This document shows, piece after piece, positions 1 through 56,165 of a stretch of 64,000 nucleotides of DNA (position 1 is the first letter of the stretch; the number at the start of each line of letters is the position of its first letter). Origin of the DNA: Nannobrachium achirus (lineage: Eukaryota > Chordata > Actinopteri > Myctophiformes > Myctophidae); contig OY997641.1 in the NCBI GenBank assembly GCA_963921795.1, positions 72,530,272 to 72,594,271 on the forward strand. Reading direction: 5' to 3'. The translations under genes were made by a program, and so were the position numbers. Below the pieces are notes generated by a model. The model worked only from the letters and a program-made list of their open reading frames with translations, was not told the DNA's origin and did not search any database.

Positions 1-269
1 AGTATCTCTGGTCAGTTATAATTCTCTCAACAAACACTTGGGGCCCTATTTTTGACCATCCTAAACGCTAAATCGCTAAACTTCTTTACCATTTAGATTT
101 TTATTAAGTGGTTCAAATAGCTGATCTACAACTAGCTGATCTACAGCTACCGTATATAAACAAACAATCAGGATTTGACGGTGCATGAGCAGCATGAGGC
201 ATGCGCAGCAGAAGCGGACCAGAGCATGATCTACAAGCTCACAACATGTCGATGTAGATCGGCTATTAG

Positions 270-3160: not shown

Positions 3161-3278
3161 GGCTTAATCAATTACAGCTCATCCCTATTGGTCGGAAAAA
3201 GACCAAAGTTGTGTGTGCATTTTAAAGTTTAAGTGACGTAATGTGGGGCCAAATTTTCTGGTTTTTTTTCAGAGTTCC

Positions 3279-4649: not shown

Positions 4650-5100
4650 GATTCTTGTGTATTTTGTATCTGTGATTTGTATCTGTGTTTTGTATTTGTG
4701 TTTTGTATCTGTGATTTGTATTTGTGATTTGTATTTGTGTTTTGTATTTGTGATTTGTATCTGTGATTTGTATCTGTGATTTGTATTATTATTTGTTATT
4801 TGCATCTCTGATTTTCAAATCCACAAAATACAAATCCACAAAACACAAATCACAGATACAAATCACAGATACAAATCACAAATACAAAACACAAACACAA
4901 AACACAGATACAAATCACAGATACAAATTACAAATACAAAACACAAATACAAATCACAAATACAAATCACAGATACAAAACACAAATACAAATCACAAAT
5001 ACAAAACACAGACACAAAACACAGACACAAAACACAGATACAAATCACAAATACAAAACACAAACACAAAACACAAATACAAATCACAAATACACATCAT
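4650..5100. repeat. Low-complexity ACAAATACAAATCACAGAT-type repeat, left arm
   Basis: Degenerate repeats of CACAAATA, CACAGATA and AAAACACA words. They change strand sense near 4815, giving a local mirror inside the arm. The same sequence is inverted at 7100-7540. Open frames here encode only KYKSQIQ-like or LCFVF-like repeats and are not genes. Confidence 0.85.
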
Positions 5101-5739
5101 ATAAATCCACAGATCATGCACGTCTGCTGTGAGGATTTTTTTTCCGCCACTAGGGGGAGCTGTTTTGCAGTGGATCTGTTTTACAGTGGATCTGTTTTGC
5201 AGTGACTTTATGAGACTCAGTCTGACGGTTGAGTGACAGGCCTCCCAGACCCAGTTGTTGCCATGTCTGCTTATTATAAGCGACTTTATTATTACCATTA
5301 TTATTATTAATATTAATAGTAATTCTTCATCTCCAGAGGCGAGGGGCCGGCGGCCGACCGAGGGGCCTCTGGAGTCGGGGTCTGACCACCCGGGGACCCC
5401 CTGGAGCCCTGGGGACCCCCAGCGGACCCCCTGCTATCTAGTCCCATGTATTTAAAAAATGTTCGGCTCTACAATGGTTTCAATGGGAGGGCTGACATTT
5501 TTTTGGGGAAATCCGGGACTTAACCCGCACGGACACCCTCCAGGGGGCCCAGGGACCCCTGCAAAATTATAGCGCCGCCTAGCGGCGGCGCGCCGCCACT
5601 GCAGCACACATAAACTTCCATAACTCGGGCTAGGAGCGACCGTTCGAGACGGGACCGGTACCCACACGTCCGGCTCGGGTCCCCGGAGCCGGCCGTGCCA
5701 CTGCGCCGCCTGGCGGCCGACGCCAAACAGGAAGTGCCT

Positions 5740-6475
5740 CTATATCTCATGAACCGTTTGTCGTACAGACGCGTGGGTGGCCTCATATTACTTGATTAGG
5801 AGTCCTTGACCTTAATTGGTGCAACAGGAAGTGCCCTTCGCCAAACAGGAAGTGCCTCTGTATCTCATGAACCGTTTGTCGTACAGACGCGTGGGTGGCC
5901 TCATATTACTTGATTAGGAGTCCTTGACCTTAATTGGTGCAACAGGAAGTGCCCTTCGCCAAACAGGAAGTGCCTCTGTATCTCATGAACCGTTTGTCGT
6001 ACAGACGCGTGGGTGGCCTCATATTACTTGATTAGGAGTCCTTGACCTTAATTGGTGCAACAGTAATATGAGGCCACCCACGCGTCTGTACGACAAACGG
6101 TTCATGAGATATAGAGGCACTTCCTGTTTGGCGAAGGGCACTTCCTGTTGCACCAATTAAGGTCAAGGACTCCTAATCAATTCATATGACGCAACCCACG
6201 CGTCTGTACGGCAAACGGTTCATGAGATATAGAGGCACTTCCTGTTTGGCGAAGGGCACTTCCTGTTGCACCAATTAAGGTCAAGGACTCCTAATCAATT
6301 CATATGACGCAACCCACGCGTCTGTACGGCAAACGGTTCATGAGATATAGAGGCACTTCCTGTTTGGCGAAGGGCACTTCCTGTTGCACCAATTAAGGTC
6401 AAGGACTCTTAATCAAGTCATATGATGCCACCCACGCGTCTGTACGACAAACGGTTCATGAGATATAGAGGCACT
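5740..6475. repeat. 118-bp tandem repeats meeting head-to-head at the palindrome centre
   Basis: Left-arm units are spaced 118 bp apart (GCGTGGGTGG at 5771, 5889 and 6007). They meet inverted units near 6062/6063. The inverted side holds slightly more copies. Each unit contains CGTTTGTCGTACAGACGCG and two AGGAAGTG (ETS-like) motifs. Confidence 0.85.
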
Positions 6476-7544
6476 TCCTGTTTGGCGTCGGCCGCCAGGC
6501 GGCGCAGTGGCACGGCCGGCTCCGGGGACCCGAGCCGGACGTGTGGGTCCCGGTCCCGTCTCGAACGGTCGCTCCTAGCCCGAGTTATGGAAGTTTATGT
6601 GCGCTGCAGTGGCGGCGCGCCGCCGCTAGGCGGCGCTATAATTTTGCGGGGGTCCCTGGGCCCCCTGGAGGGTGTCCGTGCGGGTTAAGTCCCGGATTTC
6701 CCCAAAAAAATGTCGGCCCTCCCATTGAAACCATTGTAGAGCCGAACATTTTTTAAATACATGGGACTAGATAGCAGGGGGTCCGCTGGGGGTCCCCAGG
6801 GCTCCAGGGGGTCCCCGGGTGGTCAGACCCCGACTCCAGAGGCCCCTCGGTCGGCCGCCGGCCCCTCGCCTCTGGAGATGAAGAATTACTATTAATATTA
6901 ATAATAATAATGGTAATAATAAAGTCGCTTATAATAAGCAGACATGGCAACAACTGGGTCTGGGAGGCCTGTCACTCAACCGTCAGACTGAGTCTCATAA
7001 AGTCACTGCAAAACAGATCCACTGTAAAACAGATCCACTGCAAAACAGCTCCCCCTAGTGGCGGAAAAAAAATCCTCACAGCAGACGTGCATGATCTGTG
7101 GATTTATATGATGTGTATTTGTGATTTGTATTTGTGTTTTGTGTTTGTGTTTTGTATTTGTGATTTGTATCTGTGTTTTGTGTCTGTGTTTTGTGTCTGT
7201 GTTTTGTATTTGTGTTTTGTATCTGTGATTTGTATTTGTGATTTGTATTTGTGTTTTGTATTTGTAATTTGTATCTGTGATTTGTATCTGTGTTTTGTGT
7301 TTGTGTTTTGTATTTGTGATTTGTATCTGTGATTTGTATCTGTGATTTGTGTTTTGTGGATTTGTATTTTGTGGATTTGAATCACAGATAAAAATCAGAG
7401 ATGCAAATAACAAATAATAATACAAATCACAGATACAAATCACAGATACAAATCACAAATACAAAACACAAATACAAATCACAAATACAAATCACAGATA
7501 CAAAACACAAATACAAAACACAGATACAAATCACAGATACAAAA

Positions 7545-22237: not shown

Positions 22238-25200
22238 AGATCTGCTATTTTCACAATATTTATCGGTGGAACAGAGTGAAACTAAATGTAATGCCTCAAC
22301 TCCTAATTCCAATTGCTTGTCAGGGTGGGGTCCCAAGTTCAAATAGGATTTTTTGGGGGGGTCACAGCCTGAAAAGGTACACATTTAATTTAAAAAGTAA
22401 ATGAAAGGATGAAACAAAAAGCCAGACACGAGGGCTTTTTTCCAGTTTTATAATAATCAATTGAACTGAGCATTTTTTGCCTGACTATTTGTTTGGTGGA
22501 AAGTTGCACTTGGTCATGAAGTTGATAAAAAAAAAAAAAAAAAGTAGCTTTGTTGTAGTTAGCTACTTTTGCCATGTAGCGTGTAGCTTGCTTTGCTACA
22601 TTTTCTGTGGGTAGCTTCGTTGTAGCTTAAGCTATATTTCATCAAGAGTAGCTTGTAGCTTAGCTTACTACATTTTCCAAGTAGCTTGCCCATCACTGAC
22701 TATGCGATGCAGTCGCCTGTGCCGGGCCTGTGTCGGTGTAACATGCATGCGGTTGCTGTATTCCAAGTTCCACACGCACGCTGACAGACACATAAGCTTG
22801 TTCTTCAACAGGGAACAAACAGCGAAAATTGGATTTTACAAAACGGACTCCGTCAGCGTTGATCCCGTTTTAAAGAGGAAAATAGAGCTTAAAACCAACT
22901 TGCTAGGCTTATGTCGTCGTGATGTTGATGAAGACAAGTTTATATCGGATCTGCGAGCTCAAAACTAGACGCACCCGCATACTTGTCTGAGTTGTATGAG
23001 TGGAACGTTAAATCAGACTGCAGTGCAATTATTTACTATAAAATCTACTATTACATTTGCGTGTACAGTGGGACTTGGGAGTTAATCTGTTATATAGGGC
23101 TCGTGATCGCGCTGCTGCTGTTGGCTGTTGCAGCCGCGATGTGTTACATTACAGACGTGATTTGATTATGTCAATCCTACTGTGTTTTGATTTAATGAAA
23201 ATAGGGAGCACATTTCCTTAACGGTCATCACTAAAAAATGCAATCGAAGGTCAGCCCTACCTGTAACACACAACTGCCTCTCGATGCTGAACCCCTATCT
23301 GCTCCCGATGAGCAAGTTGGTGGCATGGTTTCCTCCCCCATCTGTGTGTGAATGGGTGAAAGCAAAGCAATGCACAATCTATGTAAAGCGCCTTGGATAA
23401 AGGCGCTATAAACATTTACCATACAACAGAAGCTTAACACACAAGGCCTTTATAAATAAATAAAAGACAATGTTGCTCTCTACTAACTGCGAGAGATGGC
23501 CAACCCACTTTTTCATATAAATATGCAAGTCCTTACTCATGTCATATCAAATAAAAAGTCCTTATTATATTCCTTCATTGCAGACCAGTGTGCAGAGTCC
23601 AGCCTGAAGGTGAAGATGAGTTGGAGTGTTTGTGTTAAACAGGAACCTGAAAACCACCTGGACATCAGTACGTTTCATGCCTTCTCTTCTCTTCTCTTCT
23701 CTTCTCTTCTCTTCTCTTCTCTTCTCTTCTCTTCTCTCGCTGTCTCTCTTAGAGAGAATGTTTGCAGGAAATGTCTTTTTTTTAATGCATGAGAATAGAC
23801 TCATGATTTGGAACTACCAAAGCTATAACACAGAGGAAACACTGCATAAAATAACAAAGTACAAACCTTTAATGTTTTTTCTCTCATTTTATCTTTTTAT
23901 TCTCCCCTAGACTTTCTTTCCCTCCCTGTGTGTAAAGAGGAGCTTTTCCCTGAACATCAGGAGAGGAGTCCCAGTCTGGAGGAACCACAGCCTCCACAGA
24001 TTAAAGAGGAACAGGAGGAGCGACTACAAGAGGAGGCTGATGGATCAACGTTGACAGCAGTGAAAAGTGAAGGTGATGATGAAAACAGAGAGACAGAGGC
24101 TGTAGCCAGCACCTCAACTGAACACATGAAAACACAAGCTGATGTAGAGGACTGTGGAACATCACAACCAACTAGTGGTGACCAGCTCCTCTCTCCACAC
24201 TGTTCTCAATCTGGCGTCACTGAAGACAGTGATGAGTGGGAGGAGACCAGGGAAGGTCAGTCGGTTGTAAACACACTGGATTCACACAAGACACACAATG
24301 TGGAAGGACAAACATTGTCTTTAAGCCACAAGCTGTCCCAGGATCTGCCATTGTCAAAACAAACTCACTCCAAGAACAGCCACACAGGGAAGAAAAGTTT
24401 TAGTTGTACGGTGTGTGGCAAAATGTTTAATTGCAAGGAAAATCTGAAGAGGCACACTGTTGTTCATACAGGGGAAAAGCCCTTTACTTGTACTGTTTGT
24501 GGTAAAGGCTACGGTCAAAGTGGTAATTTAAAAACACACATGAGAACTCATACAGGGGAAAAACCCTTTACTTGTACAGTTTGTGGTAAAGGCTGTGGTC
24601 AAAGTGGTAATTTAAAAGCACACATGATGACTCATACAGGGGAAAAACCCTTTACTTGTACAGTTTGTGGTAAAGGCTGTGGTCAAAGTGGTAATTTAAA
24701 AGCACACATGATGATTCATACAGGGGAAAAACCCTTTACTTGTACAGTTTGTGGTAAAGGCTACGGTCAAAGTGTTAGTTTAAAAACACACATGATGACT
24801 CATACAGGGGAAAAACCCTTTACTTGTACAGTTTGTGGTAAAGGCTGTGGTCAAAGTGGTAATTTAAAAGCACACATGATGACTCATACAGGGGAAAAAC
24901 CCTTTACTTGTACAGTTTGTGGTAAAGGCTGTGTTCATAGTGGTGAGTTAAAAGTACACATGAGGACTCATACAGGGGAAAAACCCTTTGCTTGTACAGT
25001 TTGTGGTAAAGCTTTTAGTGAAAGTGGTAAGTTAAAAGTACACACGAGGACTCACACAGGGGAAAAGCCTTTTACTTGCACAATATGTGGTAAAGGCTGT
25101 GTTCATGGTGGTGAGTTAAAAGTACACATGAGAACTCATACAGGGGAAAAACCCTTTACTTGTACAGTTTGTGGTAAAGGATGTGGTCAGAGTGGTGAGT

Positions 25201-25400
25201 TAAAAGTACACATGAGAACTCATACAGGGGAAAAACCCTTTACTTGTACAGTTTGTGGTAAAGGCTGTGGTACCAGTAGTGATTTAAAAACACACATGAG
25301 GACTCATACAGGGGAAAAGCCCTTTACTTGCACAGTTTGTGGTAAAGCTTTTAGTCTAAATAATAATCTAAAAGTACACTTGAGGACTCATACAGGTTAA
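15045..25400 (+). CDS. C2H2 zinc-finger protein, 644 aa, four coding exons (gene 1)
   Basis: Predicted nuclear DNA-binding protein of the large teleost C2H2 family. Coding exons: 15045-15261, 19091-19234, 23584-23667 and 23911-25400, all with GT donors and AG acceptors. The phases join without a break (217+144+84+1490 nt). The ATG at 15045 opens exon 1 in both paralogues. Residues 1-72 are helical and start MESVRLKINEHMTSVG. Exon 2 contains LLDATMQPVVKLYRIG, a motif usual in fish zinc-finger N-termini. Exon 3 holds a WSVCVKQEPE motif. Exon 4 holds VCKEE, an acidic PPQIKEEQEE block and twelve fingers. Intron 1 (3.8 kb) and intron 2 (4.3 kb) are filled with repeats. No KRAB domain is seen. Gene 2 at 35830 is its tandem paralogue. 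DNA target unknown. Confidence 0.88.
15254..15384. repeat. 41-bp minisatellite duplicating the exon-1 splice donor
   Basis: Three direct copies of a unit holding ACACACTGCAGGTATGTCTG, so GT donors occur at 15262, 15303 and 15344. Only the first keeps exon 2 in frame. Unit 2 has two copies (donors at 36047 and 36090). Confidence 0.85.
15385..15860. other. Intron 1 sequence with CCCTAA-like run
   Basis: Collinear with 36130-36370 and 37813-40610 of unit 2. The run at 15662-15755 repeats CCCTAACC/CCCTTACC motifs irregularly. It also has the AA junction near 15774 that marks the empty site of the 37872-40525 transposon. Confidence 0.6.
15876..17077 (-). mobile_element. 5'-truncated L2/CR1-type LINE, minus strand
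   Basis: Its 3' end is at 15876 with a TCAATCAATC-type tail on the minus strand. The body extends to about 17077, where the SINE resumes, and a short GGCT-like duplication flanks it. Unit 2 has the SINE without this insertion. A 3' end of the same family recurs on the + strand at 40700-40770. Confidence 0.7.
16167..16748 (-). pseudogene. C-terminal fragment of LINE reverse transcriptase (193 codons)
   Basis: The frame encodes MTTKVINKVNQRIRFLQR, then an LIDYGVLVWYRDAP stretch and the LVYKIHYTSKIPMYL and FKIGMKSHLQ motifs. These are typical of the region after the palm/thumb of L2/CR1-type reverse transcriptases. The polymerase motifs (FxD, YADD) are absent because the copy is 5'-truncated. 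The frame upstream (16749-17040) is broken. Not expected to be functional. It lies in intron 1 of gene 1, antisense to it. Confidence 0.7.
17313..18018. other. Intron 1 of gene 1, no element seen
   Basis: Collinear with 41078-41768. It holds the same short inverted ATGCCCATAT/ATATGGGCAT pair near 17775-17800. No open frame or RNA signal. Confidence 0.6.
18019..19008. mobile_element. Unclassified repeat with TAGCGCCACC blocks (intron 1)
   Basis: Absent from unit 2, where 41768 reads straight through. It starts GTCTCCACCAGCC and ends near GGTGGAGACC...GCTTCTAGT, with GTCTCCACCAG-type inverted sequence near both ends. A TAGT duplication is possible. Related in inverse to 8893-9450. It lies just upstream of exon 2. 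Confidence 0.5.
19235..20119. other. Start of intron 2: donor-region repeats and TTCGAA-rich stretch
   Basis: The stretch after exon 2 repeats the last exon bases plus donor (GTTGTACAGGATAGGTATGT at 19221, 19273 and, degenerate, 19329). The segment 19551-19680 is a small repeat also at 44360-44480 and 49556-49675. At 19770-19850 TATTCGAAT/ATTCGAA motifs form palindromes typical of a hAT end, but I find no partner end. Confidence 0.5.
21568..22030. mobile_element. Nested hAT-like MITE
   Basis: The ends CAGAGATGGAAAAAGTAC and CTTTACACCACTG are roughly inverted. The flanks GTCTAAAG and GTCCGAAG agree at 6 of 8 bases. It is full of AAAGTA/TACTTT subterminal repeats. Confidence 0.6.
22137..22236. 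repeat. (ACTG)n-(TGTC)n compound microsatellite
   Basis: About 14 ACTG units pass directly into about 10 TGTC units. Confidence 0.95.
22707..23243. other. Intron 2 region with no recognised element
   Basis: Sequence private to unit 1. Short frames at 22702-22968 (88 codons) and 22983-23165 (60 codons, hydrophobic C-terminus) show no motif I recognise and no paralogue in units 2 or 3. I do not call a gene. Confidence 0.4.
23244..23412 (+). repeat. SINE/LINE-tail fragment (unit 1)
   Basis: It contains GAATGGGTGAAAGC, then GTAAAGCGCCTTGGATAAAGG and CGCTATAAACATTTACC, the same tail type as the SINE at 17225-17312. Paralogous with 46178-46335. Confidence 0.65.
23681..23737. repeat. (CTTCT)n pentanucleotide in intron 3
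   Basis: About 11 units starting 13 bp after the exon 3 donor. The paralogous run in gene 2 is at 46603-46660. Confidence 0.95.
23911..25400 (+). CDS. Exon 4 of gene 1: acidic region and 12 C2H2 fingers
   Basis: The exon opens at 23911 after a pyrimidine-rich CCCCTAG acceptor and ends at TAA 25398-25400. Twelve fingers with HTGEKP linkers run from about 24400. Cys2 and His2 are kept in all. The core position usually held by Phe is Cys in seven fingers (3, 4, 6, 7, 9, 10, 11), Tyr in two (2, 5) and Phe only in 1, 8 and 12. Fingers 3, 4 and 6 are nearly identical, a sign of recent internal duplication. Contact positions (-1,2,3,6) include QGNT, QGNA (three times), QVST, HGEV (twice), EGKV, QGEV, TSDT and LNNV. 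The reading frame stops where a 13th finger would start. Confidence 0.9.
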
Positions 25401-28130: not shown

Positions 28131-31502
<3,372 letters not shown>

Positions 31503-46500: not shown

Positions 46501-48069
46501 TGCAGACCAGTGTGCAGAGTCCAGCCTGAAGGTGAAGATGAGTTGGAGTGTTTCTGTTAAACAGGAACCTGAAAACCACCTGGACATCAGTACGTTTCAT
46601 GCCTTCTCTTCTCTTCTCTTCTCTTCTCTTCTCTTCTCTTCTCTTCTCTTCTCTTCTCTTGCTGTCTCTCTTAGAGAGAATGTTTGCAGGAAATGGCTTT
46701 TTTTAATGCATGGGAATAGACTCATGATTTGGAACTACCAAAGCTATAAAACAGAGGAAACACTGCATAAAATAATAAAGTACAAACCTTTAATGTTTTT
46801 TCTCTCATTTTATCTTTTTATTCTCCCCTAGACTTTGTTTCCCTCCCTGTGTGTAAAGAGGAGCTTTTCCCTGAACATCAGGAGAGGAGTCCCAGTCTGG
46901 AGGAACCACAACCTCCACAGATTAAAGAGGAACAGGAGGAGCTTCTACAAGAGGAGGCTGATGGATCAACGTTGACAGCAGTGAAAAGTGAAGGTGATGA
47001 TGAAAACAGAGAGACAGAGGCTGTAGCCAGCACCTCAACTGAACACATGAAAACACAAGCTGATGTAGAGGACTGTGGAACATCACAACCAACTAGTGGT
47101 GACCAGCTCCTCTCTCCACACTGTTCTCAATCTGACATCACTGAAGACAGTGATGAGTGGGAGGAGACCAGGGAAGGTCAGTCGGTTGTAAACACACTGG
47201 ATTCACACAAGACACACAATGTGGAAGGACAAACATTGTCTTTAAGCCACAAGCTGTCCCAGGATCTGCCATTGTCAAAACAAACTCACTCCAAGAACAG
47301 CCACACAGGGAGGAAAAGTTTTAGTTGTACGGTGTGTGGCAAAATGTTTAATCACAAGGTACATCTGAAGAGGCACACTGTTGTTCATACAGGGGAAAAG
47401 CCCTTTACTTGTACTGTTTGTGGTAAAGGCTACGGTCAAAGTGGTAATTTAAAAACACACATGAGGACTCATACAGGGGAAAAGCCCTTTACTTGTACAG
47501 TTTGTGGTAAAGGCTGTGGTACCAGTGGTATTTTAAAAAAACACATGAGGACTCACACAGGGGAAAAGCCCTTTACTTGTACAGTTTGTGGTAAAGGCTG
47601 TGGTCATAGTGGTGAGTTAAAAGTACACATGAGGACTCATACAGGGGAAAAGCCCTTTACTTGTACAGTTTGTGGTAAAGGCTGTGGTCAGAGTGGTGAG
47701 TTAAAAACACACATGAGGACTCATACAGGGGAAAAGCCCTTTACTTGTACAGTTTGTGGTAAAGGCTGCGGTACCTGTAGTGATTTAAAAGTACACACGA
47801 GGACTCACACAGGGGAAAAGCCTTTTACTTGCACAATATGTGGTAAAGGCTGTGTTCATGGTGGTGAGTTAAAAGTACACATGAGAACTCATACAGGGGA
47901 AAAACCCTTTACTTGTACAGTTTGTGGTAAAGGCTGTGCTACCAGTAGTGATTTAAAAACACACATGAGGACTCATACAGGGGAAAAGCCCTTTACTTGC
48001 ACAGTTTGTGGTAAAGCTTTTAGTCTAAATAATCGTCTAAAAATACACTTGAGGACTCATACAGGTTAA
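35830..48069 (+). CDS. C2H2 zinc-finger protein, 560 aa, four coding exons (gene 2)
   Basis: Tandem paralogue of gene 1. Coding exons: 35830-36046, 41845-41988, 46506-46589 and 46832-48069, with the same phases and exon lengths as gene 1 for exons 1-3 (217, 144 and 84 nt). The N-terminus differs from gene 1 at few positions (GEE for GVE, FQIEME for FQREME). Exon 2 carries the conserved LLDAAMQPVVKLYRIG. Exon 4 has VCKEE, the acidic PPQIKEEQEE block and nine fingers. Intron 1 (5.8 kb) holds the TTAA element, a 2.65-kb transposon and a SINE; intron 2 (4.5 kb) holds two hAT elements and a minisatellite. Expected to be a nuclear DNA-binding protein; target unknown. Confidence 0.88.
37252..37376. 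repeat. (GT)n-(CA)n perfect hairpin
   Basis: A (GT)n tract, then TCACAGTGTGTCTTGTT, a single C at 37314, and its exact complement running into (AC)n. Arms are about 62 bp with a 1-nt centre. Confidence 0.85.
37466..37570. repeat. (GT)n microsatellite
   Basis: About 45 GT units ending in GAGCGTGCGTGCG. Confidence 0.95.
38485..38750. repeat. 112-bp tandem repeat (about 2.4 copies)
   Basis: The marker GCGCCTATCAATAC starts at 38495, 38607 and 38719. Copies are nearly identical, so the array is young. Confidence 0.9.
38815..38881 (+). repeat. tRNA-like SINE head
   Basis: GATGGCTCAGTGGACTG (A-box-like) and AGTTCGAACCCC (B box) about 35 nt apart. Weaker relatives with GTTCGAATCC lie near 39130 and 40152. 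Stems are imperfect. Confidence 0.5.
38900..40060. other. GC-rich block inside the transposon, no credible gene
   Basis: Rich in GGGGTCCC/GGTCCCC words and a repeated CTCCCGGC(T/C)GCTCCTAGCCCGAG block (near 39615 and 39700). The word CTCCTAGCCCGAGTT also occurs in the foldback element (6572). Long open frames exist on both strands (up to 245 codons) but overlap antisense and have Pro/Arg/Gly-biased translations, as expected from GC content. Confidence 0.55.
40612..41077 (+). mobile_element. SINE (unit 2 copy), interrupted
   Basis: GGCGGCAGTGGCTCAGGGG head, AGTTTGATCCCGG B-box region and GCGCTTTGGATAAAG tail. It is interrupted at 40691-40926 between duplicated CCCGG. Confidence 0.65.
40691..40926 (+). 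mobile_element. LINE 3' end plus downstream foldback, one insertion
   Basis: The segment begins with a + strand 3' end of the L2-type family seen at 15876 (CATGAAACTGTACC... AATCAATCAATC). It continues without a break into CCATTCCGACATGTC...GACATGTCGGAATGG, a small foldback (40768-40912). CCCGG occurs on both sides. This looks like a LINE insertion carrying 3'-flanking sequence. Confidence 0.45.
41078..42112. other. Intron 1 / exon 2 neighbourhood of gene 2
   Basis: Collinear with 17313-18018 and 19016-19320 of unit 1; exon 2 is at 41845-41988. After exon 2 the exon-end-plus-donor sequence is repeated twice (near 42018 and 42080), as in unit 1. Confidence 0.6.
42113..42951. other. Probable one-ended TTAA element and flanking sequence
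   Basis: TTAA followed by AGGAGTGGCGACACC (42109-42127) resembles the left end at 36374, and unit 1 reads through here. I cannot find the matching right end. An inverted pair CAATCAAATTAATTTATT / AATACATTAATTTGATTG flanks 42780-42860. No gene. Confidence 0.4.
42952..43381. mobile_element. 430-bp hAT MITE rich in GATCGG
   Basis: The ends TAGAGATGTTACCGATCA and CGGACCATCCCTA are inverted. ATTTTTTT is duplicated at 42944-42951 and 43382-43389. Subterminal GATCGG repeats match the larger element at 44604. Confidence 0.75.
43720..44300. repeat. Minisatellite, 135-185-bp units
   Basis: Four degenerate copies marked by CATTTTCTGA(T/C)AGTTT at 43767, 43903, 44087 and 44258. Each includes GGAATAC...GCCGAATAGGG and a (C/G)-rich run. 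The 258-codon minus-strand frame across it is a by-product of the repeat. Confidence 0.75.
44604..45968. mobile_element. 1.37-kb hAT element rich in GATCGG
   Basis: The ends TAGAGATGTGCC and GGAACATCTCTA are flanked by ACCACTGG (44596-44603) and TCCACTGG (45969-45976), 7 of 8 matching. It contains (CT)n runs at 45089-45134 and three 46-bp tandem copies of CGCTGTGATCGATCGG at 45786-45925. No transposase frame found. Confidence 0.75.
45969..46505. other. Intron 2 end of gene 2, with SINE tail
   Basis: A SINE/LINE-tail fragment at 46178-46335 (paralogue of 23244-23412). The remainder is collinear with 23413-23583. Confidence 0.6.
46603..46660. repeat. (CTTCT)n pentanucleotide in intron 3 of gene 2
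   Basis: About 11 units, paralogous with 23681-23737. Confidence 0.95.
46832..48069 (+). CDS. Exon 4 of gene 2: acidic region and 9 C2H2 fingers
   Basis: Nine fingers from about 47328. All Cys2His2 ligands and HTGEKP linkers are intact. Core Phe is present only in fingers 1 and 9; finger 2 has Tyr and fingers 3-8 have Cys. Contact positions (-1,2,3,6) read HVHR, QGNT, TGIK, HGEV, QGET, TSDV, HGEV, TSDT and LNRI. Most differ from gene 1, while linkers and framework are almost unchanged. Gene 2 lacks the block of near-identical QGNA fingers found in gene 1, and its first finger has HKVH for CKEN. It ends in TAA with a fossil finger after it. Confidence 0.9.
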
Positions 48070-52240: not shown

Positions 52241-52706
52241 TTGCGTGTTACATGGTCCTTGTATGGTTACACACATAAATGTTACCCCACATTCATTGGT
52301 GATGATCCATTTGCATGTATGTTACTCTATGTTGGTATAGATCCATTTGTCTTTATCCACATGTGCAGTGTGGGGTATTCCTACACAGCTGTATCAAAGG
52401 AAATGAAACAGAGTTACAGTTAATATTTAAAACAGGATACTGTGTCATCAAACATGCAGTATAAAACGTAGTATAATTCCTTGAGTGTTGACTGTGAATT
52501 CATGTATTCACATGTAGCTCATTCAGTTTGTATATTCATTAAGTTCAGCTTTCATCTCAAAACATCCCAAGTATCTCTGGTCAGTTATAATTCTCTCAAC
52601 AAACACTATTTTTGACCATCCTAAACCCTAAATCCCTAAACTTCTTTTTTTTTAAATAGTTCAAATAGCTGATCTAAAACTAGCTGATCTACAGCTACCG
52701 TATATT

Positions 52707-52839
52707 AAAGCAATAAGCCACAAGAGGCGAGTGGTTACCGGGGGAGTATACACCAGCTGAGAGGCGTAGGAGTCTCCGACCCTCTCAGCTGGTGTATACT
52801 ACCCCGGTAACCACAAGCCTCGCGTGGCTTATTGCTTTT
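52707..52839. repeat. Terminal hairpin of the recombinase element
   Basis: The arms AAAGCAATAAGCCAC...GTATACACCAGCTGAGAGG and their complement differ at only a few positions. The loop region contains GGAGTCTCC. Inner CCAC-N9-GTGG repeats within both arms could form side arms, the same branched plan as at 7569-7671. Confidence 0.85.
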
Positions 52840-53130
52840 CTAAAACGGTCACAATATGGCAACATGAAAAATCATAGACGTACCAATTAAAACTGTTCTA
52901 TTTCACTAATAATTCACTATAAGGTCTGCTCTGCAAGAAAGTAGTCCCCAGCTACAAGAAAGTAGTTCCCGGCCAGGCTGCAGAAACAACACACGTGTTA
53001 CTTGCAATCACTTTATTTTGAACAGCCCCCTTCCCCAAGCAGTTTATCGACGTTACAGACTGTCATTTTTGCCAACAACACAGGTGCAGATAATTAATTG
53101 AACAAAACAAAAGTCACAAAGTAAGCATTC

Positions 53131-54543
53131 TTAACACGTAGTGTCCCTATTAACATTTATCTGTATATCACCGAGAATTGTGCAATTGGTAAAGTACTGT
53201 TCTGCCATGTTGTTGGCAGTGCAACTTCTCTTAGCTGGGGGGACAGGGGCGGGAGTTGACTCTGCACAGGAGGTGCGTTTGTTGCCCGCAAGGACATTGC
53301 TCCAGCTTCTCCTATCATCGTAGTTTGGCTGCCAGTAAGATAGCAGGGACGACTCGCATTTGTGGCCGGTCACTGCAATGATTTCTCTTCCCTCCAAGCC
53401 CGCATCAGAGAGTTTTTGTATCGTGGTGCTTCGCAAGCAGTGGTTGGTGTATACAGTTCCAGTTCCAGCTGCTTTGCAAATCCGAGGCAACATACTGGAG
53501 AGGTAGTTTACTCCCATGGGCTCTCTGGTATACCTAACGTTAGGCGAGACAAGAGAAAATGTTGTCACTGTTGAGTAACCAAACTACACTGTAACTATGA
53601 CACAGTAGAGCAGAATAGGCTACAAATAAATAAACAAATAGCTAACTTACCACAGCTCATTGGTGTAGTTTGCTCGCTTCGGGTGGAGATAGAATGCGGG
53701 TGGATTATCCGGCAGCAACGACAGATATTTCTCCAGTGAAGCGACAGGACACAGTGGGTTCCCAGGCAGCTCGAACATAAATCCCCGGAGAGACTGTTTG
53801 TTTCTTTCGTTGGGGTCTTTGTGGTTTTTAGTGTATTCGTTGAATGCTAACGTCACATACTTGAGACCGTTCTCATCCTGGCGGATGGCAAATGAATCAG
53901 GTTTCAGTTCACGGTTGCCCTCTTTAGCTCTGCGTCCCATATGTAGCTGCACGTCAAACCACACTTTATTGACGAGACCCGCTGGTGTATTCGGATTCAA
54001 TGCTGAAGAGTTCTTGATTTTTTGAAAGTCTTCCTCTGTTATCGCTGGGTGATGCGTTGTTGTGTCACGTCCTTCTCGGCGGAGTTTTTTCACTACTGCA
54101 ACAAAGACGTTGTTACTGGTGGTGAATTCAGAATCTTTCAGTAGACACCAGGACCGGCTCACCGGTGGGTCATTTATGTACCTGTTGAGCCCAGCACGTA
54201 GTCCCACATAACTGCTGAAACCATAGGATTCGCCTTTTGTGGTTTTCACGCTGGCATAGAAGCGCCTCAGAGTCTCATTCAAGTCCATTTTGGTGACAGT
54301 TTTAAAGTCAACAGACACGTCCTTCTCGGTACACCAGGTCTGAAAACAGCGAACTGCCCACATTGTCTGTTTCACAGTCGTCTTTTCATTTCTTGTCATT
54401 TCCAGCTTTTCTAGTTCATTGTCACTTATTTCAGCATGTCTTCGTTTTGCCTGTTCTTCCTCCATATTGTCGCTTTCTTGTTGTTGTAGCCACTCGTCCA
54501 TAGTTAGTCCCCCCAACAGATCAAAATTCACTTTCCATTCCAT
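53131..54543 (-). CDS. Tyrosine recombinase, Crypton type, 431 aa in two exons
   Basis: Exon 1 is 54543-53651 and exon 2 is 53533-53131, joined by GTAAGT and TAACGTTAG (893+403 nt). The split Trp codon restores ...NELW-YTREP. Residues 30-50 are charged; about 55-150 resemble the SAM-like core-binding domain; about 165-400 form the catalytic domain. Candidate catalytic residues: Arg in GRRAKEGNREL (204/205), H329 and R332 in NHCLR, H355 in TGHK, and Tyr 364 in LLSYWQP. All are present, so the protein may be active. Vertebrate relatives include domesticated Crypton-derived (DUF3504-type) genes. The tail after about 375 is Pro/Ser-rich. The start is the first ATG of the frame, 340 nt from the element end. 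Confidence 0.85.
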
Positions 54544-54883
54544 AACAAAGCAGAAGAAAGGCAGTTCCGGGTATCGCTGTTGTGCGCGGAGTGATCTGTG
54601 ATGCGGTCAGCAGCACTGTTGAATGGGGAATGTGGGGCGCTTGCTGTTTTTACAAGCCCTGCCCGGTGCCATCTTATGCATGTGGGCGGTGCTTAGAAGC
54701 CCCGCACGGCAGGATTTACGTGAAAATCAAGCGCCCCCTTCTCTAGTCTAGGTTGACAATACTGTAGAAAGAAATAACGCACCTGGGTTTGATATAAACT
54801 GATTCAAGGTATGGGTTACAGTCTCAGGTATACCATGGCAACCAGCCAATCAGAATCAAGGAATGGAACTAGCCGTTTTAGAA

Positions 54884-55519: not shown

Positions 55520-56165
55520 AGGACAACTTTAGTTTTTTGCAACAAGGGTTCATATTTTAGATTGTAGTTAAAGAATATAAAAGATGAGTGTTAAAAGGAT
55601 TTCATTTACTTCTTTTTATTGTTTTAGAGATTCTTATTTCAGTGGTTGGGGGCATGCGTACAAGTGGCTAAATATGCCATTTTACACAGAATAAGCCCAT
55701 TCCCAAGATACAACGCAACCTTTCATGGTTGGATGTGACTTATGGGGGCTAGAAGTGTTACTGTAAATAATAATAAAGAAACTGCTGGCTTATTGTGTCT
55801 AAAAGACATATTTAGCAGCTTGTACGCATGCCCCCATGTGTACGCATGCCCCACATTTTAGCACGGTAAACGCGATAAAACAATAGAACAAGGCAAATGA
55901 AAACATTTTAACACTCACTTTTTCTTTTCTCTAATTACAATCTAAAATATGAGTTCATTTGCAAAAACAGATAAACGCCATTTTGGGAAAAAACGAGCTG
56001 ACTATTGTAAATAATGGTTAAGTTAGCGTTTTTTTATAATATAAAATTCATTTTGTTGCAAAGGCCGATATATCCCATTCTAAACGCCCTCAAAGATCAG
56101 GTTTCATTGCAAAAGCAGACAAACGACACAGCCCTGTGTTTGCAGAAACAGATACGTCCATTGGG

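Follow-up and report, generated by a model that had tools for sequence, protein, structure and literature searches.

The 64,000-nucleotide (nt) stretch of Nannobrachium achirus DNA analysed here, called the window below, contains a transposable element that protein identities and Pfam matches support as a CryptonA transposon. The sole enzyme found in it is a tyrosine recombinase, its left end is a long hairpin, and its right end is complementary to the inner foot of this hairpin (Table 1). From comparison with copies and diverged relatives in the 1.66-Gb host genome, we consider it probable, by analogy with integron cassettes, that this element moves by one-strand site-specific recombination on folded DNA.

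The element, its gene, and its copies

The recombinase has 431 amino acids (aa) and is encoded by two exons on the minus strand. It matches the Pfam family PF12012 (DUF3504) with an E value of 1.8e-13 and also Phage_integrase, the latter below the cut-off. The catalytic residues R205, K239, H329, R332, H355, and Y364 were all found, and R205, K239, and H329 are invariant in an alignment of 20 sequences. Both exons, the Pfam match, and the six residues bear out an earlier reading of the same DNA made without database searches (the sequence-only reading), which had described an intact 431-aa recombinase with the full catalytic set. The search for protein relatives yielded 130, of which 120 were listed, the best ones from fishes; identities to the recombinase were 64% in an electric fish, 63% in a cyprinid, 57% in a grouper, and 47% in medaka (P0034). 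No relatives were found in the viral or prokaryote contigs searched, nor among solved structures in a sequence search. Besides the two recombinase exons, the listing of open reading frames (ORFs) of at least 150 aa contained none within 52706-54883.

The limits of the insertion were set by comparing its junctions with two element-free sister units of the surrounding repeat, and they are unambiguous. The element is preceded by CCGTATAT and followed by AAACAAAC, with neither duplication nor loss of target: the left junction reads GTATAT^TAAAGC, the right junction TTTTAGAA^AAACAA, and the empty site GTATAT^AAACAA. Exact ends from two sister empty sites and the absence of a target duplication had been claimed before; the junction comparison gives the same ends, and neither the two empty sites in the window nor the genome copies reveal a consistent duplication. 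Copies L013 and L025, for instance, sit at different places in one repeat, again without target duplication, and the sole enzyme found is a tyrosine recombinase, not a DDE transposase.

Table 1. Features of the element and of its empty sites, in window coordinates
Feature	Position	Strand	Basis or remark
Complete element, family I (CryptonA as judged from its protein)	52706..54883		2,178 bp, no target duplication; two empty sites and shared ends
Empty site, sister unit B	29058..29074	+	Junction 29065/29066
Empty site, sister unit C	150..166	+	Junction 157/158
Left target half-site TAT (TAN rule)	52703..52705	+	Flank adjoining the left end of the element
Left-end hexamer TAAAGC, supplied by the element	52706..52711	+	Kept across genome copies
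Terminal hairpin, 132 nt, apex shortened in the window copy	52707..52838	+	DNA fold, stem pairing across copies
Hairpin inner foot TTCTAAAACGG, partner of the right end	52838..52848	+	11/11 complementary to 54873-54883
AATAAA poly(A) signal	53012..53017	-	Between recombinase gene and hairpin
Tyrosine recombinase exon 2, with HxxR, GH, and Y	53131..53533	-	Stop codon 53131-53133
Intron (predicted), 117 bp, GT-AG	53534..53650	-	Gene model; GTAAGT...TTAG
Tyrosine recombinase exon 1, from ATG	53651..54543	-	Gene model and Pfam match
Right end CCGTTTTAGAA	54873..54883	+	Same in 32/38 copies, with small changes in a few

A search of the host genome with the hairpin gave 1,585 candidates, of which 40 places were scored and 39, all except the window, were retrieved; L011 and L012 were excluded as duplicates of L010, and the resulting set of family I comprises 38 copies including the window. 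The sequence-only reading had suggested that many copies sharing these ends would support it, and there are many, with the left end set in varied flanks and both ends visible in 32 of the 38 (lengths 232-2,178 bp). The right end was not found in L014, L024, L028 (retrieved on the wrong side), L029, L032, and L039. The sequence shared by the 38 copies begins at the outer foot of the hairpin, and not outside it; the first bases differ in L020, L039, L040, and a TGAAGC group, so that the terminal hexamer reads TAAAGC in 31 copies, TGAAGC in four, and three other ways once each. At G000:C1:12102890-12102968, two family I left ends lie in opposite orientation within 80 bp. The recombinase search added three near-identical intact copies (97-99%) and many diverged ones; the right end is at the expected place in all three near-identical copies, and the hairpin was found in those on C1 and C20.

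The terminal hairpin and its closure by the right end

Folded as DNA, positions 52690-52860, which include 16-22 nt of neighbouring sequence, reach -70.4 kcal/mol (z -16.5), and none of 200 shuffles was as stable. The minimum-energy fold of the hairpin proper is one stem with small internal loops. A branched hairpin of 133 bp at the left end only had been described from the sequence; the one-sidedness stands, the length is 132 nt, and the branched form was rejected in favour of the single stem. Across 37 aligned copies (L011, L012, and L028 omitted) the stem is paired in 97.6% of 1,780 cells, and its 12 double-change cells were matched by none of 500 shuffles. Apex deletions and altered arms vary between the hairpins of L031, L036, L042, and L043, and the left arm of L028 resembles the sequence of the other arm, as if the arms had been converted.

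Nine diverged recombinase loci were retrieved from the same genome, and seven of them were grouped by family: II (L050, L051), III (L053, L054), IV (L055, L056), and V (L052). All seven carry one hairpin of 137-147 nt at the left end, about 330-590 bp past the last matched part of the recombinase and on the same side as in the window. Their best-stretch tblastn identity to the window protein is 46-62%, and the family II proteins also have stretches at 36% and 76%. The hairpin sequence is shared between families III and IV (scores 136-154), I and V (100), and II and V (85). The arms of family I score only 48-59 against families II, III, and IV, a range that shuffled arms also reach (a score of 55 was attained by 977 of 3,000 in the mir-763 test described below), yet all of them fold. 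Between family I and families II-IV, the hairpin site is thus kept as a fold and not as a sequence. That most of the relatives examined in this genome share the one-hairpin plan suggests movement as one folded DNA strand, similar to that of bacterial gene cassettes.

Family II probably moved very recently, as judged from the near-identity of its copies: all 40 scored matches, from 1,202 candidates, are 100% identical to the 181-bp query, and 9 of 20 retrieved copies, counting the first, match it at every one of 600 bases, while the others differ from it in an ungapped comparison. The scored places comprise G000:C19:19792017 and 39 others. At G000:C19:10394815-10399290, four family II left ends occur in alternating orientation at regular spacing, and in one pair one member seems truncated. 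Locus L048 has a 410-bp imperfect palindrome at 636-1045 (gene-minus orientation), beside a family II recombinase without the usual hairpin.

The apex of the hairpin, which family I copy L081 has at full length, reads CGAGGCGNAGCCGAG in that copy, in families II and III, and in L056. In family V the inner stem is reversed (CGAGCCGAAGGCGAG), and L055 has a four-base loop. A GNA apex loop beside GA/GA is therefore found in families I (L081), II, III, and V and in one of the two family IV loci. GNA loops and GA/GA mismatches are stable in DNA. Along the stem, the unpaired bases of the hairpin strand are mostly purines, with 16/18 in L081, 11/13 in the window, 20/28 in family II, 17/20 in family III (L053), 11/12 in both family IV loci, and 19/23 in family V.

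The right end CCGTTTTAGAA is the reverse complement of TTCTAAAACGG at 11 of 11 positions, and the two lie exactly at the right end and at the hairpin foot, which confirms the 11-bp perfect inverted repeat reported earlier between the inner side of the hairpin and the right end. When the inner flank of family I was aligned locally with the right region, none of 500 shuffled queries equalled the match, and the same was true of the perfect 15-bp match of family II. In families II, III, and IV, it is the last 12-15 nt of the right end that pair with the inner foot. The right end of L056 was read by its motif at 3273, with one mismatch; an end placed there by alignment was not used, being an AT-rich match. 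Among short family III copies, 19 of 20 have both the foot and the right end, 12 of them pairing perfectly over 13 bp and the remaining seven, six of which share one flank, with one mismatch or wobble. The foot and the right end both differ between long and short family III elements, and still match each other. In the minimum-energy folds of short whole elements, computed as DNA and including 25-nt flanks, 7 of the 11 tested elements of family I and all 3 of family III have the right end paired with the foot, and this pairing would place both cut points side by side.

A scripted join of the right end to the left end folds as one longer hairpin that is faultless in this region apart from a bulge of 2 nt, TA, at the join itself. 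The crossover consequently lies in one arm of a long palindrome, which explains why a copy, once integrated, has its hairpin at just one of its ends. Two extra bases stand at the join in families I (TA), II (GT), and III (TA); family IV shows a difference of 2 nt and a mismatch. Joins of this kind are also present in genomic DNA: the family II sequence GTGGTAGAA^GTAAGC... occurs nine times (five and four by strand), against none for a backward-pattern control. Four of the five joins viewed are tandem pairs of whole units, namely L108, with two identical 1,340-bp units joined end to end, and L110, L111, and L113, with units of about 640-660 bp and outer left flanks ending in TAT, TAT, and TAA. 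In the fifth, L112, the join pattern is present and preceded by an atypical family II end, with no upstream unit in view. Tandem pairs would be expected from circles inserted beside a copy, or from dimers.

Target sites, junctions, and the proposed movement

Families I and III prefer a symmetric target, TAN^N6NTA, with a six-base centre. Against a background of 0.086, family I has TA at -3,-2 in 25 of 38 copies and at +8,+9 in 13 of 32; for family III, where five of 22 copies were dropped for an identical flank, the counts are 14 of 17 and 14 of 16. The junctions are one-sided. In both families the left end carries the element's own six bases and the target's six are found at the right. The genome holds 514 exact matches to the family I left-end pattern (TA, seven open bases, and the 18 bases after the hexamer), and among the 100 listed, 95 read TAAAGC or TGAAGC and five are one-base variants. 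Family III has 156 matches with the hexamer left open, and of 100 listed, 95 read GTATGC and five are one-base variants. Some of these matches are duplicated copies, so the counts are not all independent events. The element's hexamer never follows the right end, in 0 of 32 family I and 0 of 16 family III copies, and no reciprocal second-strand product was seen among the 200 listed of the 670 left-end matches. Two-strand exchange with unbiased resolution would give both junction arrangements. One-strand exchange followed by replication, the pathway of integron integrases in the accessible text of PMC4792948, yields only the arrangement seen here.

The mechanism that we propose would begin with the + strand of the window in single-stranded form, folding so that the left end becomes the long hairpin. 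The right end would pair with the inner foot and bring the two ends together, and the recombinase would cut at GAA^ on the right and ^TAAAGC on the left and join both. This would close the element into a circle with a complete hairpin at its junction, about 2 nt of it bulged, and would reseal the target. On insertion, the folded circle would be exchanged through a single strand, with families I and III favouring TAN^ in a double-stranded TAN-N6-NTA; the second strand would stay unexchanged, and replication would resolve the intermediate. We observed the ends, the architecture, the pairing of the right end, a target rule in two families, one-sided junctions, and joins of right end to left end; the single-stranded state, the order of the cuts, and the replicative resolution are what we infer. 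The sequence-only reading had proposed, from the analogy with integron attC sites, that the hairpin may be the recombination substrate, and this idea gains support from the copies across the genome, the diverged families of like plan, the foot pairing kept through sequence change, the joins, and the one-sided junctions, although action on a folded strand would be the inferred part.

Several observations weigh against this reading. In the window itself, positions +8,+9 of the right flank AAACAAACA are CA instead of TA. Family II gives no clear sign of the TAN rule: TAN stands in two of the four copies not chosen by flank (L050, L051, L083, L085). A flank-biased set of 20 copies was not counted for the family II rule because the two flank bases of its query fixed AA at -2,-1; at -3, which the query left free, just two of the 20 have T. 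The autonomous copies of family III match between foot and right end with one gap, as well as 25 and 14 of 500 shuffled queries did; the 12-bp match of L055 in family IV was reached by 6 of 500, and the 11-bp match of family V by 41 of 500, for which reason the family V ends are tentative. The closing pairing is absent from the minimum-energy fold of 4 of the 11 short family I elements. Locus L048 has no such hairpin in the 3.9 kb retrieved, though the family II right end is present, L049 shows neither hairpin nor right end in its retrieved stretch, and the near-identical copy on C14 has no element DNA where the hairpin is expected.

Further points of this kind concern the stem and the choice of strand. 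Double compensatory changes within family I are few (3 pairs, matched by 41 of 500 shuffles), so the compensatory signal within the family is modest, and arm-to-arm conversion could be its source. The apex motif was retained in only 2 of 40 family I copies, which means that it is unneeded for the movement of every copy or was later lost; the regular expression behind this count missed most families, and the apex reading by family given above replaces it. The predicted energy gap between strands is small, +0.1 to -4.0 kcal/mol, and the + strand is the more stable one for 24 of the 39 copies of family I and 16 of the 22 of family III. Strand choice by energy was rejected, the difference being too small, and the choice would have to rest on loop composition. 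A strong and consistent bias of mismatch repair could, moreover, mimic the one-sidedness of the junctions.

Classical Crypton mobility, in which a double-stranded circle undergoes two-strand exchange and the hairpin is a palindromic cluster of binding sites or a duplex cruciform, is the strongest competitor, and we judge it unlikely. Excision as an extrachromosomal circle, by prokaryotic analogy, is the model cited in the accessible part of Kojima and Jurka, and double-stranded circles would also yield the end-to-end joins, just as the symmetric target of families I and III with its six-base centre would suit such an exchange; yet the reciprocal heteroduplex products that it predicts are missing among the 200 listed left ends and 48 right ends, and it explains neither the pairing of right end and foot nor the excess of purines among unpaired stem bases of one strand.

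Some single-stranded DNA viruses use long hairpins as replication structures. A role of the hairpin as an origin of replication or in end replication, as in hairpin-ended or rolling-circle elements, with the recombinase acting elsewhere, would agree with the occurrence of tandem units, but the element has no second ORF of at least 150 aa, the cut falls within the hairpin arm itself, and the right end completes the hairpin exactly, so that we regard this explanation as very improbable. The replication or packaging signal offered as an option in the sequence-only reading has the hairpin itself as its sole evidence. Least credible of all is that the hairpin works as RNA, such as a small-RNA precursor or the end of a transcript, an idea that the likeness of one arm to mir-763 might suggest. 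In the window and at 5 of 6 other loci checked, a poly(A) signal comes before the hairpin; wherever a family has the hairpin, it stands at the recombination end; other window hairpins and simple repeats score up to 65 bits against microRNA models; and the scan of the whole window does not list mir-763 itself.

Elsewhere in the window, an inverted repeat at 4858-7350 has arms of 1,209 nt that are 97% complementary and 75 nt apart, and another inverted-repeat element, with 77-nt arms at 83%, lies beside the Crypton at 55550-55952. Two long open frames at 23850-25400 and 46771-48069 look like C2H2 zinc-finger genes by eye and possibly belong to repeated context.

Relation to known systems

The arm of family I is similar to the mir-763 consensus, a likeness equalled by 5 of 20,000 dinucleotide shuffles (fitted p 0.001) and by none of 3,000 plain shuffles. 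The arms of the other families are not, with 151 to 2,252 of 3,000 shuffles as good, and the resemblance is a lead and no proof. A likeness to mir-4788 was rejected as no better than chance (777 of 20,000 shuffles as good). Given that other hairpins in the window match microRNA models, a covariance score alone means little, and Rfam microRNA matches were rejected as proof of homology. Mouse mir-763 has been called solely an Eulor5A repeat (PMC3495686), and a review connects mir-763 to a miniature inverted-repeat transposable element. Eulor5/6 and the salmon Crypton-N1_SSa (PMC5753468) are, like the window element, vertebrate Crypton relatives, classified by their ends, and differ from it in that the Eulor repeats are ancient non-autonomous fossils. 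The accessible text of Kojima 2018 (PMC5753468), which classes Eulor5/6 as Crypton by their ends, makes no mention of a hairpin or palindrome.

Taken more broadly, we lean towards the view, somewhat less firmly than towards the mechanism itself, that animal Cryptons represent eukaryotic single-strand recombination, with an attC-like hairpin made from both ends, single-stranded circles, and one-strand insertion, and that the hairpin end may survive in mammals as Eulor5A/mir-763. The movement of Cryptons has so far been argued from analogy, and the defined ends, the two-family target rule, and the many near-identical copies provide a testable substrate. If one-strand exchange were true, the recombination of folded single strands by tyrosine recombinases would extend from bacteria to vertebrates, Crypton boundaries would become findable for annotators, and the long-hairpin form of some conserved vertebrate repeats and of a microRNA gene could be explained.

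The window element resembles CryptonA as described by Kojima and Jurka 2011 (PMC3212892) in three respects: the only gene found encodes a DUF3504-type recombinase, the two outer ends do not form terminal inverted repeats, and there are non-autonomous derivatives. It differs in its one long-hairpin end and in the pairing of the other end with the hairpin foot. In the accessible text of that paper, no terminal repeats were found in animal Cryptons, in agreement with the statement of the sequence-only reading that classical Cryptons are described without terminal inverted repeats; the window element does not share this absence, which is a reported observation and does not define membership. No description of hairpin-ended Cryptons was found in the accessible part of the literature searched, a scope that excludes subscription papers, supplementary files, and Repbase entries, and no such ends are described in the accessible text of PMC4455052 and PMC9345347.

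The transposons of the IS200/IS605 group are single-strand transposons as well, with ends recognised as hairpins and single-stranded circles, but they use an HUH transposase and have hairpins near both ends. Bacterial systems of the SE-6945 type share with the window element tyrosine recombinases, a one-strand circle, and a 6-bp central region. They differ in having four shared genes and in making the circle without leaving an empty site, and no inverted-repeat structure is detected at their att sites in the accessible text.

The closest likeness is to the attC sites of integrons (PMC4792948, PMC3053210), which are palindromic, keep their fold over their sequence, and have bulged bases, to which the 2 extra nt at the crossover in families I, II, and III correspond as extrahelical bases of the folded site. 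The crossover in one arm is a further shared feature, and the exchange of one strand into a double-stranded partner would be another. In contrast to an integron, the window element is a eukaryotic transposon with its own recombinase and with TAN targets, not AAC, and its right end supplies one arm of the site. It has no attI platform, intI, or cassette array, and is a single-gene transposon dispersed in an animal genome. By this comparison, the element may work like integron attC recombination and is not a member of the integrons.

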